A stretch of 46,043 nt of DNA from an uncultured Clostridia bacterium (GTDB taxonomy: Bacteria; Bacillota; Clostridia; Oscillospirales; Ruminococcaceae). This document shows, in pieces, positions 10,464 through 13,709 of the stretch; within the stretch, counting starts at the first letter, position 1, and the number at the start of each line of letters is the position of its first letter. The stretch lies in the NCBI GenBank assembly GCA_947623585.1, contig CANQHA010000017.1, forward strand, positions 1 through 46,043, in the 5' to 3' direction. The notes below the pieces were generated by a model. It searched no databases. It saw only the letters and a program-made list of their open reading frames with translations, and had not been told where the DNA came from. The translations under genes were made by a program, and so were the position numbers.

Positions 10464-10483
10464 GTTGCATAGCCAAAAAAATT

Positions 10484-10620
10484 CCGCCTTGCCGTTGTTT
10501 GCAGACATAAAACCCGCACGAAGCAGGACGGGTAAAATCGCCCCAAACGTTTCGCGCTCCCTTCGTCCGCACAAGGCGGGAGGTCTGCAATCCGCGTTCG
10601 GAGGTCGAATCCCTTTAATT
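10484..10620. other. Inverted-repeat-rich spacer
   Basis: CCGCCTTG (10484-10491) and CAAGGCGG (10572-10579) are complementary. GCAGAC (10501-10506) and GTCTGC (10583-10588) also match but would cross the first pairing. ACCCG/CGGGT (10512-10516, 10529-10533) forms a small internal hairpin. No gene or promoter is seen from here to 10700. Confidence 0.3.
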
Positions 10621-10700
10621 ATGTGTTGGATTTATAAAACCGCAAACTGTCGAACAAAGCAGAATATTTGTATTCTTCTCAAAAATTTAAAAATTATCCG

Positions 10701-11051
10701 TCACGATTCCTCACCGTCATAATCGTCGCCGTCAAAGTCGTCCGAGCTTTCCTCGTCCTCCTCGCCGTCGTAATAATTTTCGAGCCGCTCGAGAAAGATG
10801 TTTCCGATGCGCTCGTATTCATCGTCGTCGTCGATGGTGACAAGCGTTTCCTCGCCGCCATCGTCCTCGACCTTAAGAACGATAAGCCCCGCGTCGCCCT
10901 CGAGCGATTCTTTCGGATCGTCATATACCGGCAGCATGGCGTAATAGATAACGCCGTTTTCTTCAAGCGTATCCAAAAGCTCAAAGGTCTGCTGCTCGCC
11001 GTTTTCGTCCTCAAGGGTATATATATCCGGATCGTAGTTGAAATCAGCCAT
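10701..11051 (-). CDS. DUF1292 (YrzB-type) acidic protein
   Basis: Small, very acidic protein of 116 residues with the DUF1292 pattern: DIYTLEDENGEQQTFELLDTL, then YYAMLPVYDDP, then LIVLKVEDDGGEETLVTIDDDDE. The C-terminus is an Asp/Glu run. The molecular role of the family is not established. The start at 11051 (MADFNYDP) is chosen because GAGGTG lies just upstream; the longer frame to 11081 lacks a site. In related Firmicutes this gene normally sits after ruvX on the same strand. Here it is convergent with ruvX and has its own promoter. Confidence 0.85.
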   Translation of the reverse strand: MADFNYDPDIYTLEDENGEQQTFELLDTLEENGVIYYAMLPVYDDPKESLEGDAGLIVLKVEDDGGEETLVTIDDDDEYERIGNIFLERLENYYDGEEDEESSDDFDGDDYDGEES

Positions 11052-11102
11052 AAGGGCACCTCGCACAAAAATTTCGGGCAAAAAAACGCCCGCAGCATTA
11101 TT

Positions 11103-11131
11103 AGTATATACGATTTCGCTCTCAAAGTCAA
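11103..11131 (-). promoter_or_regulatory. Promoter of the DUF1292 gene
   Basis: Minus strand TTGACT (11126-11131), 17-bp spacer, TATACT (11103-11108). Between it and the start codon the transcript holds a CGGGC/GCCCG hairpin (about 11071-11088) followed by AAATTTTT, which could be a weak attenuator. Confidence 0.75.
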
Positions 11132-11189
11132 TAGATAAATTGTGAACAAAATATTAAATAAAATTTTTAAAATTTTTTTGAAAAAAGTG

Positions 11190-11218
11190 TTGACAATCAA
11201 CAAAAAGTATGTTATATT
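11190..11218 (+). promoter_or_regulatory. Promoter of the mini-ORF leader
   Basis: TTGACA (11190-11195), 17-bp spacer, TATATT (11213-11218), with A/T tracts upstream that could act as an UP element. It is back-to-back with the DUF1292 promoter. Confidence 0.85.
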
Positions 11219-11292
11219 ATAGACACAGAAAGAGAAAAGAAAGAAACGACAAGCCAAGGGGCTTGAATCAAACGAAAAAGGGGTAGATTCCA

Positions 11293-11316
11293 ATGAAGAG
11301 GCATTTTGAAAGCTGA
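11293..11316 (+). CDS. Mini-ORF 1 of the leader array (MKRHFES)
   Basis: Seven codons and a TGA stop. AAAAAGGGG ends 9 bases upstream, the best-placed ribosome site of the array. Confidence 0.4.
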   Translation: MKRHFES

Positions 11317-11358
11317 CAGCCGCCAACCGGTTCTGACAGAAGAAAGAATGTGATTCAA

Positions 11359-11385
11359 ATGAAACTCGCAAGATCATGGATTTGA
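11359..11385 (+). CDS. Mini-ORF 2 of the leader array (MKLARSWI)
   Basis: Eight codons and TGA. The preceding unit GAAAGAATGTGATTC is a weak ribosome site but keeps the array pattern. Confidence 0.3.
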   Translation: MKLARSWI

Positions 11386-11488
11386 AACCCGAATAAAAAT
11401 GAAAGAGGTGAGTCCGGCATACAATTAAGTCTCAAAAAAGATTCATACACTTAAAGGAAAAAAGAATAATCCGACGGAGATGATTCCG

Positions 11489-11518
11489 ATGAATGTAAAC
11501 AAGCACAAAATTCTTTAA
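11489..11518 (+). CDS. Mini-ORF 4 of the leader array (MNVNKHKIL)
   Basis: Nine codons and TAA. GGAG lies 9 bases upstream within GGAGATGATTCCG. The third unit (11401-11416) lacks an ATG at the matching place and has ATA at 11419 instead. Confidence 0.4.
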   Translation: MNVNKHKIL

Positions 11519-11542
11519 AAACCCTTGAAAGGCGTGAATCCG

Positions 11543-11566
11543 ATGAACAGGTGTAAAAACCTTTAA
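11543..11566 (+). CDS. Mini-ORF 5 of the leader array (MNRCKNL)
   Basis: Seven codons and TAA. AAAGG lies 10 bases upstream within GAAAGGCGTGAATCCG. It is the last unit, 30 bases before the terminator stem. Confidence 0.4.
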   Translation: MNRCKNL

Positions 11567-11595
11567 TAAGGTCTCAAAACAAACTTAACATATAT

Positions 11596-11624
11596 AAAAG
11601 AAGCAGTTCTGCACTGCTTCTTTT
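11596..11624 (+). terminator. Intrinsic terminator between the leader array and the lipoprotein gene
   Basis: AAAAGAAGCAGT pairs perfectly with ACTGCTTCTTTT over 12 bp around the loop TCTGC. The 3' strand ends in four Ts. It lies 15 bases before the lipoprotein ATG, so it would act as an attenuator if that gene has no promoter of its own. Confidence 0.85.
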
Positions 11625-11639
11625 CATAGGGGGAATATT

Positions 11640-12023
11640 ATGAAAAAAGTATTGATTTTAATTTTCTGCGCGTTAATTCTGCTTCTGCCCGGCTGTTCGT
11701 CGTTGAGCAGCGCCGCCGCGCCCATTGCCGAGCCCATGGGAATAGTTGTAAGTTTTCCTTATGACCCAAACGACCCGAATCACGATTATCATGCCGACGG
11801 TTATTATCTTTGGGAGGAAGCCGAGAAGTGGACCGACGCCGAGTGGGACGCTTATCTTGCCGAGCACCCCGAGGATTATGAGCTTTCGCTGCAAATTCGT
11901 TACGGAATAGAGCCCGAGCCCCATTACGGCAGCGCCCTGCCGCCCGGATCTACCCGACCCACTGATATCGAAACCGACGAGGTAGTAGTTCCGACGCAGG
12001 GGACAACGCAAAATTGTGACTAA
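11640..12023 (+). CDS. Small lipoprotein, function unknown
   Basis: 127-residue protein with a lipoprotein signal: KK, then the hydrophobic VLILIFCALILLL, then the lipobox LPGC with Cys19. It is therefore probably anchored to the outer face of the membrane. The mature part is short, acidic and rich in Trp, Tyr and Pro (HDYHADGYYLWEEAEKWTDAEWDAYLAEH), with no domain I recognise. AGGGGG precedes the ATG. No promoter is visible between the terminator at 11624 and the start, so expression probably depends on read-through of the mini-ORF leader. A strong terminator follows. Confidence 0.75.
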   Translation: MKKVLILIFCALILLLPGCSSLSSAAAPIAEPMGIVVSFPYDPNDPNHDYHADGYYLWEEAEKWTDAEWDAYLAEHPEDYELSLQIRYGIEPEPHYGSALPPGSTRPTDIETDEVVVPTQGTTQNCD

Positions 12024-12042
12024 ATTTTAACACGCTTTTTTC

Positions 12043-12067
12043 GCCCGGATCCCCCCCGGGCTTTTTT
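12043..12067 (+). terminator. Intrinsic terminator after the lipoprotein gene
   Basis: GCCCGG (12043-12048) pairs with CCGGGC (12056-12061), followed by six Ts. Confidence 0.9.
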
Positions 12068-12176
12068 CATGCCCGAAAACTTTTTCCTCAAAAAGTAATT
12101 TGCCTGATACAAGCCGAATATAGATATAACGGCACTGATTTATGCAAAACTTTTCAGGCACTATAAAGGAGGAGCT

Positions 12177-13709
12177 ATGGATTTTAAGCTGACAAGGGAG
12201 AATTTCACCGTTCAGAAAACGCTTTCCGACACGGTGACAGAGCAGGCGCTCGAGCTGGACTATGTCCTTCCCGACTACTGCCCGGAAATTTTCAAGGTAT
12301 TAAGCTGCCGGATATATCCCTCGGCGGCAAAGCGCACTCAAAGCGGAGTGAGGCTCGGATATGAGCTGACCGCTTTGGTGAGGGTCGTTTATGTCTCCGA
12401 GGACGGCGGAATTTCGGCGGTCGAGCAGACCTTGACCTACGACAAGTCGGTCGAGCTGAGCTATGCGCCGAAGCAGCCGGCGGTATACATCGAGCCGACG
12501 GTCGAAACAAAAAGCTGCCGCGTTGTGAACAAGCGAAGGATAGACGTTCGCGGGGTGATAGCGGTCAGGGTGAGGGTAATGTGCGACGAGCCTCAGCAGG
12601 CGGTGACTGCCGCGCTGGGCGGAGGTATTCAGCTTCGCAAAACGCTTGTGACATATCCCTCAAAGCGGCTATTCATCACAAAGCGCGTCACCGTTATAGA
12701 CGAGGTAGAGATAATCCGTTCAAAGCCGCCCGTCGGAGTGGTCATAAAAACCGACGTCGCGATAAATTCCGCCGACAAAAAGGTGATCTCGGGAAAACTT
12801 CTCACAAAGGGAGAAGCCGGCGTAACGGTGATATATGTTCCCGAGGGCGGGGGAGACGTCGAAAAGATCAGCTTCGACCTGCCGTTTTCTCAGGTCTCCG
12901 ATATCGAGGGGCTCGACGAGCGCTTCGACGTTTATGTTGACGCCCGAGCCGCAAGCTGCGCCATTCGACCCGTTCCGAAAAGCGACCCCGCGAAGATAGA
13001 GTGCGAGCTCGGAATCGACATAAGCTGTCTGGCGCTTCGTTTTGAGAGCGCCCGCCTTGCCGACGACGTTTTTTCGACCGAGTGCGAGGCCGACGCCGAG
13101 CGCGCCGACTGTCTTATTGAGTGCGTTCCGGTGCAGGTCAACGAGACCCACCGCTTAAAAGCCACGCTGACATACAGCGAGGGAGAGCTGAGAACGGTTA
13201 TGTATGCCGGCGCCGAGCCTTTGGGAGCGGCTTCGGTCATAAAAAAGCCGGACGGCAGCGTATATGCCGGCGGAAAAGCGGCGCTGACGGTTTTTGCCAA
13301 AAACGAGTCCGCAAAGCCGGTCTGCCTTGAAAGCGAGGTCTCGTTTGAGCATATGCTTGAAGCGGCGGTCTGCGGCTGCGGCAGCACCGATTTAGAGCTC
13401 AACATCGGCGCGGTGACATATAATCTTACCAGCTCGAACGCAATTGAACTCACCGCCGACGTAAAGATAAAGGGCTATGTCTGCGAAGCGAGGCCCTGCA
13501 GCTTCATAAGCGACGTCAGACTTGACGAGACCAAGCCGGTCGAGCGCGACCGCGACTGTTCGCTCAAGCTGTATTATGCCGAAACGGGCGAGCAGCCTTG
13601 GGAGATAGCCAAGCGCTGTCGGGCGAGCCTTTCGGCGATACTTGAGGAGAACGAGATCGGCGGCGAAGCGGTGGAAAGCGGCTGTATGCTTCTGATACCG
13701 ATAGAATAG
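12177..13709 (+). CDS. SPOCS (DUF3794) and LysM domain protein, spore-coat type
   Basis: 510-residue protein. The first ~130 residues and two later stretches carry the SPOCS/DUF3794 pattern (LDYVLPDYCPEIFKVLSC; ...DLPFSQVSDIEG; ...VSFEHMLEAA). The last ~50 residues form a LysM-like peptidoglycan-binding module (YYAETGEQPWEIAKRC...LLIPIE). In Clostridia such proteins are associated with sporulation and the coat/cortex. AAAGGAGGAGC lies just before the ATG. It is 20 bp upstream of spoIVA, so the two almost certainly form one sporulation transcript. I looked for a sigma-E-type promoter in 12068-12176 but saw no convincing match. Confidence 0.85.
   Translation: MDFKLTRENFTVQKTLSDTVTEQALELDYVLPDYCPEIFKVLSCRIYPSAAKRTQSGVRLGYELTALVRVVYVSEDGGISAVEQTLTYDKSVELSYAPKQPAVYIEPTVETKSCRVVNKRRIDVRGVIAVRVRVMCDEPQQAVTAALGGGIQLRKTLVTYPSKRLFITKRVTVIDEVEIIRSKPPVGVVIKTDVAINSADKKVISGKLLTKGEAGVTVIYVPEGGGDVEKISFDLPFSQVSDIEGLDERFDVYVDARAASCAIRPVPKSDPAKIECELGIDISCLALRFESARLADDVFSTECEADAERADCLIECVPVQVNETHRLKATLTYSEGELRTVMYAGAEPLGAASVIKKPDGSVYAGGKAALTVFAKNESAKPVCLESEVSFEHMLEAAVCGCGSTDLELNIGAVTYNLTSSNAIELTADVKIKGYVCEARPCSFISDVRLDETKPVERDRDCSLKLYYAETGEQPWEIAKRCRASLSAILEENEIGGEAVESGCMLLIPIE

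Follow-up and report, generated by a model that had tools for sequence, protein, structure and literature searches.

The stretch of about 400 nt between a divergent DUF1292 gene and a putative lipoprotein gene in the window (the whole 46,043-nt stretch of DNA analysed, one contig of a 2.07-Mb genome) is best explained, from its sequence, as a short member of an RNA family found in several families of the order. The RNAs of this family each carry several units, in which a purine-rich Shine-Dalgarno (SD) stretch is followed by UGA-N-UCC-(A/G)-AUG, and many of the units open a micro-ORF of a few codons. The RNA class is well supported, and we infer its function; the most likely candidate, with a probability of roughly 0.4, is an RNA that acts in trans on the supply of available ribosomes, serving as their sink, store or sensor. 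A fuller proposal, put forward tentatively, is that the RNAs constitute an undescribed bacterial class, spread over several families of the order, in which initiating ribosomes would be rowed on start-stop minigenes and a longer first ORF would act as a translation-dependent switch, the whole being a possible device for parking, counting or buffering ribosomes.

The locus and its neighbours

The features of the locus are collected in Table 1. As the original prediction had stated, no normal ORF was found in the ~400 nt between promoter and hairpin. The strong promoter predicted at the start of this region was recovered by a promoter scan, with 11 of 12 matches and the top rank among six promoters in 10600-12200. 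The predicted terminator with a 12-bp stem stands in part: the hairpin is present, but its T-tract lies mostly within the stem and the scan tool gave a terminator score on the minus strand only. The relatives of the window are gut Clostridia, for example uncultured Clostridia, Ruminococcus sp. and Oscillospiraceae bacteria, and the RNA is also borne by a contig of Candidatus Faeciplasma pullistercoris (L089), placed by NCBI in the Oscillospiraceae. The neighbouring 6S RNA has counterparts at loci L011, L013, L015-L017, L247, L289, L290, L294 and L302.

Table 1. Features of the RNA locus and its surroundings, in window coordinates
Feature	Position	Strand	Description	Basis or conservation
6S RNA	10477..10668	-	Neighbouring gene, adjoins DUF1292	Rfam match
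DUF1292 gene	10701..11081	-	Divergent neighbour	Syntenic anchor in the genus and several other genera
Promoter	11190..11218	+	TTGACA-17-TATATT, TG ahead of second hexamer; near-perfect sigma-70	Strongly conserved across the genus
Transcript	11225..11628	+	Putative stand-alone RNA, ~400 nt	Ends inferred from promoter and hairpin
U1	11277..11316	+	AAAGGGGTAGATTCCA + ATG 11293, ORF MKRHFES*	Same-clade relatives: MKR* or 7-codon ORF
U2	11343..11385	+	AAAGAATGTGATTCAA + ATG 11359, ORF MKLARSWI*	16 copies in 13 genomes
U3	11401..11428	+	GAAAGAGGTGAGTCC at 11401-11416, no ATG at the equivalent place; GTG frame would give (M)SPAYN*	
U4	11473..11518	+	GACGGAGATGATTCCG + ATG 11489, ORF MNVNKHKIL*	8/13 changes silent
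U5	11527..11566	+	GAAAGGCGTGAATCCG + ATG 11543, ORF MNRCKNL*	7 codons + stop in 13/13 clade loci
Hairpin	11596..11624	+	12 bp, 5-nt loop, likely terminator	Repeat search
Lipoprotein gene	11640..12023	+	Putative, 127 aa, lies downstream; outside the conserved system	ORF list, tblastn

Repeated units in the window

Direct reading together with a repeat search revealed five extended SD units between promoter and hairpin, each with an SD followed by a similar spacer, and four of them with an ATG. Of the predicted five or six copies at a spacing of 55-70 nt, five are present, but the spacing is wider, at 49-81 nt, the successive unit starts being 66, 49, 81 and 54 nt apart. Indeed, most copies open the predicted ORFs of 7-9 codons, as four of the five units do.

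The units exceed chance, since an exact GTGANTCCGATGAA occurs in the whole genome at U5 alone, TCC(A/G)ATG stands ahead of three of the five units versus none of the 343 ordinary starts of the same genome (starts picked by script), and the units are conserved in relatives. This TCC(A/G)ATG spacer is what distinguishes the units from gene starts. In U3, as in late units of L190, L228 and L346, GTGAGTCC is kept and the AUG is absent, with GGCA, AAAG or CCGG standing next.

Conservation and coding constraint within the genus

Congeners gave long DNA matches to the region, and the alignments keep the units, the promoter, their order and the stops, so that the repeated units are conserved in relatives. 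A model of U2-U3 that used sequence alone, derived from 25 congener sequences out of the DNA search, recovered the predicted RNA in 30 of the 31 genus genomes (E <= 3.7e-14); the sole genome with no match (G007) is 86% complete and also has no strong match to DUF1292. In the 13 loci of the window's clade, the U3 motif GTGAGTCC is present in 12 (L193 has GTGATTCC), U2 and U3 lie 48-49 nt apart in all 13, and U4 and U5 lie 53-54 nt apart in 11. The U1-U2 module occurs in tandem at two loci, with three copies in L011 and two in L012. A decayed protein gene had been named as a possible refutation; no traces of a long frame were found, and the separate starts and stops are conserved in the clade. 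In the genus, RNAalifold gave little covariation that would support a conserved secondary structure (the covariation term was only -1.04 kcal/mol), and a pairing between the end of U2 and U3 that it suggested was set aside as not significant (p<=0.05 in 2 of 20 rows).

Across the genus, none of the 58 scored sites stops within 2 codons and 56 stop within 12. All 16 copies of U2 in the window's clade (13 loci, 8 distinct sequences) encode MKLARSWI, and all eight changes among them are silent, a TGA/TAA exchange included, where 2.7 would be expected (p=3e-4). For U4, 8 of 13 changes are silent with 3.2 expected (p=0.002), as counted in 12 copies of equal length, one longer variant being left out. 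No excess of silent changes was detected in U1 of the same clade (6/25, p=0.43, 13 loci), the four changes of U3, three of them silent (p=0.18), are too few to judge, and the test of U5 was not used, its 19 rows being mixed with U1 matches (p=0.46). The second clade of the genus has a longer U2, MKVLxxAR(S/N)G..., that often keeps A-R-S/N-G; no silent excess was found there (5/15, p=0.49). These changes demonstrate coding constraint for no units other than U2 and U4 in the window's clade.

Early stops after the AUG outside the genus

Since the motif used to find the units looks no further than the ATG, the length of the ORF that follows is an independent test. We scored 98 loci outside the genus taken without hand-picking, with 97 distinct sites. 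In these, 17 of the 39 non-first units were found to stop within 2 codons (5.1 expected), 22 within 3 codons (7.1 expected) and all 39 within 25 codons (30.0 expected); in a reduced set, 20 of 28 non-first units stop within 3 codons, with 5.8 expected. None of 1000 dinucleotide shuffles reached the observed counts in either set. Twenty loci picked for unit clusters (55 ATG units), two of which (L165 and L182) are contigs with no established kinship, gave 19 of 35 non-first units stopping within 2 codons (4.9 expected) and 25 within 3 (7.0 expected; 0/1000 shuffles). These ORFs read M, MK, MY, MR, MT, MI, MYR and similar. The first detected unit outside the genus opens an ORF of 17-30 codons in 12 of the 20 loci; when first and lone units are included, 35 of the 97 sites stop within 3 codons (15.6 expected), and there is no excess of ORFs of at most 12 codons (53 vs 47.7 expected) because the first ORFs are longer.

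A control on the other reading frames gave p=0.019 at <=4 codons, p=0.19 at <=12 and p=7e-4 at <=25 across the order. Within the genus, frame 0 had fewer stops at <=4 codons (13/58 vs 72/116) and more at <=12 (56/58 vs 85/116). This control is biased because ATGA sets a stop in frame +1, and the dinucleotide shuffles were therefore used. To judge from the counts, the AUG with its early stop is under selection outside the genus, and no other finding argues as strongly for use of the AUG and for the importance of terminating soon after it. Since many units outside the genus stop within 1-3 codons, the early stop, and not a given peptide, is the widespread feature.

Pairing with 16S rRNA, spacing and complementarity

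The units had been predicted to be extended ribosome-binding sequences, and this description suits them: they are repeated, conserved and near-complementary to the 16S 3' end. That end reads GGCTGGATCACCTCCTT in three relatives; the assembly that contains the window yielded no 16S gene. Base pairing of the consensus unit with this 3' end covers nearly the full unit, at -20.9 kcal/mol. Across 63 units from 26 loci outside the genus genomes, the median was -14.4 kcal/mol versus -11.2 for the 343 ordinary starts (p=7e-15), a comparison that is partly circular because the unit-finding motif includes the SD. Exceptional pairing was rejected for the window's own five units, which pair only moderately strongly compared with the 343 gene starts; 8.5% of these starts pair at least as strongly as U1, 34% as U2, 2% as U3, 10% as U4 and 21% as U5.

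Neighbouring units lie 47-58 nt apart in 13 of 79 cases, with 4.7 expected, in a bin chosen after seeing the data; this distance is near the footprint of an initiating ribosome. Outside the genus, ORFs of 12-32 codons carry stretches of the GGACUCG/GGGCUCG type, complementary to the GAGUCC of the unit. This complementarity reached p<0.05 in 10 of 25 ORFs, and the combined p=5e-9 comes from rows that are related and not independent. Translation of the longer ORF may alter the availability of the units in the wider family.

The wider family across the order

RNAs with AGG-UGA-N-UCC-(A/G)-AUG are not confined to the family: further families of the order have them, and so does at least one locus outside the order. 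The same design recurs in other genera of the family, where it likewise stands divergent to DUF1292. A motif matrix (consensus AAAGGGGGTGATTCCAATG), for which the genus and seven further loci served as training set, located at least two units beside DUF1292 in 6 of 13 other genera of the family and at 1 of 26 loci belonging to other families; three of these 26 are shorter than 900 nt. The pattern GNTGAGTCCAATG matched only 88 of 395 genomes of the order, at 111 sites versus 28 for a reversed-pattern control, related genomes being counted several times; its free letter is G at 77 of the 111 sites, where a quarter would be expected. Outside the order, 187 genomes gave 23 sites (control 14), with G at 9. 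A narrower class-wide pattern (1/196) was abandoned as too strict, with 0 of 9 in-order genomes matched, and the looser pattern was used instead. A 19-nt pattern matched 6 of 295 genomes, and a pattern search of contigs returned, among the matches listed, true members together with many records of unrelated phyla.

Most of the 51 GG sites (GGTGAGTCCAATG, 50 loci), 46 in all, open an ORF no longer than 30 codons; a promoter (<=2 mismatches) lies within 330 nt of 28 of the 51, versus 58 of 400 random windows. The non-GG sites, six of nine with such an ORF and four of nine with a promoter, are a poor control, as some are true units. Exceptions among the GG sites are a protein gene of 171 codons (L306 and L307) and L300, with 195 codons. 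The 171-codon gene (match at 1501) begins with AAAGAGGGTGAGTCCAATGGAAAGTGAA, as RNA units do.

Judged by promoter and terminator, long members reach ~830 nt (L303), 1100 nt (L290) and 800 nt (L302). The long (f13) form, L303-L315, is strongly conserved along its length in an alignment of 11 loci and is perhaps structured. The reverse strand of L182, 1-770, holds a tandem array with a unit period of ~100 nt, on a contig with no established kinship to the genus. L359 (~1500, minus strand) looks like a minimal member of ~220 nt from another family of the class; it has a TTGAAG-17-TATAAT promoter, an MTK* unit, more units and a strong terminator. Three others that were checked, L360, L361 and L366, look like coding context.

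Proposed role and alternative explanations

We propose that initiating ribosomes would bind at the units, reach a stop almost immediately and then leave or re-initiate, so that one RNA could engage several ribosomes or 30S subunits together with no ordinary protein output. Neighbouring units at 47-58 nt could seat ribosomes side by side. In the wider family, the GGACUCG/GGGCUCG element of the longer ORF would pair with GAGUCC, and translation of that ORF would set how accessible the units are. For U2 and U4 of the window's clade, constraint at the level of the peptide has been added to this. Simple initiation does not account for units that lack an AUG, such as U3. If the proposal is right, bacteria have a dedicated RNA that engages ribosomes and neither encodes protein nor pairs with a target, which would provide a genetic handle on the sensing or buffering of free ribosomes; minigenes of one to three codons, ignored by gene callers, could be selected in several bacterial families.

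The main rivals of this role in trans on ribosomes are a sponge and a micropeptide mRNA, both of which we regard as unlikely. In the former, the repeated AGG-UGA-N-UCC would be recognised at the RNA level, whether by small RNAs rich in C or by an RNA-binding protein, and the role of the minigenes would only be to keep the RNA covered by ribosomes and stable. The AUG-less units (U3 and the late units elsewhere) that keep GTGAGTCC would suit this, as would a unit number that varies by duplication in the manner of titrating RNAs (three at L011, two at L012); however, the in-frame early stops are selected, and a pure binding site has no need of them.

Slightly less likely again is a polycistronic mRNA whose micropeptides, MKLARSWI, MNVNKHKIL and others, would be functional, for example as signals or target binders. 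This would account for the constant U2 peptide, with 8/8 silent changes among 16 copies and 8 sequences, for the 8/13 silent changes of U4 and for the A-R-S/N-G often kept in U2 of the other genus clade. It fits poorly with the absence of a silent excess in U1 (6/25, p=0.43) and in second-clade U2 (5/15, p=0.49), and many non-first ORFs outside the genus have 1-3 codons with varying residues.

It is very improbable that the RNA acts in cis, as a leader or attenuator whose hairpin would govern expression of the lipoprotein gene at 11640. The original prediction had suggested such control by read-through, and in the window the hairpin indeed has a weak T-tract with the lipoprotein gene directly after it, L002 and L008 having likewise weak T-tracts. 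However, tblastn detected the lipoprotein at no more than 3 of 29 loci, counting the window (L001, L002 and L008; at L016, L017 and L099 the sequence covered extends little or not at all past the RNA), and cis-control of this gene was dropped as a general role on that count. Weak T-tracts also follow the hairpin at L003, L007 and L009, which have no lipoprotein. In other families the relatives finish with strong terminators, and what comes next is a different gene or a convergent one, the latter at L303. No conserved downstream gene was found across the 29 loci. A script placed a terminator-like hairpin in 27 of them; the exceptions are L089 and L099, where the searched stretch gave none. In 9 of the 13 short-clade loci this hairpin lies 396-468 nt from the promoter, and at a few loci the hairpin chosen is not beside the last unit, for example at 853 nt in L002. 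Members of the genus reach ~1.4 kb (L016 and L017). Since the lipoprotein is present at 3 of 29 loci, the RNA looks to stand alone, and local read-through into the lipoprotein gene is possible at its three loci. Chance or a decayed protein gene would agree with the lack of a normal ORF, but is practically negligible given that the units, stops, promoter and order are conserved across the genus and that the design recurs in other families.

Comparison with known systems

At the gathering threshold, Rfam 15 gave only 6S in the window, outside the region, and only 6S and one tRNA in 28 further loci; a permissive search of 11150-11660 gave five weak hits, each of them on the minus strand and short of the gathering threshold. 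A description of the design was also absent from the literature searched, which comprised titles and abstract openings, most subscription journals and preprints lying outside its coverage. Within these bounds, the original view that no described family has this design is upheld. The passages of PMC6429828 on short ORFs and uORFs hold no such array.

Leader-peptide attenuators and uORF leaders, exemplified by a translation-aborting ORF of Salmonella (PMC8092293), share short ORFs, elements able to pair with ribosome-binding sites and a terminal hairpin. Unlike them, the RNA described here has no conserved downstream gene (lipoprotein at 3/29 loci). Large non-coding RNAs of Bacillota, namely raiA/ModT (PMC11706538) and OLE, ROOL and GOLLD (PMC12286853), are likewise RNAs of Clostridia and relatives with a function that is unknown or emerging. 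They differ from the present RNAs, which carry arrays of micro-ORFs and gave no gathering-threshold match to them in the loci scanned.

Minigenes, such as those of phage lambda bar, are familiar as single sites or reporters. Start-stop ORFs are a subject of PMC4965119. Both resemble the present units in an AUG followed by an immediate stop, whereas here natural arrays would be borne on a dedicated RNA. The dual-function small RNAs SgrS and S. aureus RNAIII each have one ORF of tens of codons. They are similar in being stand-alone transcripts of regulatory size that bear a small ORF, and differ in that several units built on one repeated ribosome-binding motif, many with near-minimal ORFs, are found here. 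CsrB and RsmZ are decoy RNAs with many sites, in which GGA is placed in hairpin loops. The repeated GGA of this type is absent from four of the five window units, U4 having GGAGAT. The likeness to CsrB and RsmZ lies in the many copies of a short motif, the variable copy number and the strong promoter with a terminator; unlike theirs, the motif of the present RNAs is an SD with an AUG and an early stop, in which both the start and the in-frame stop are selected.
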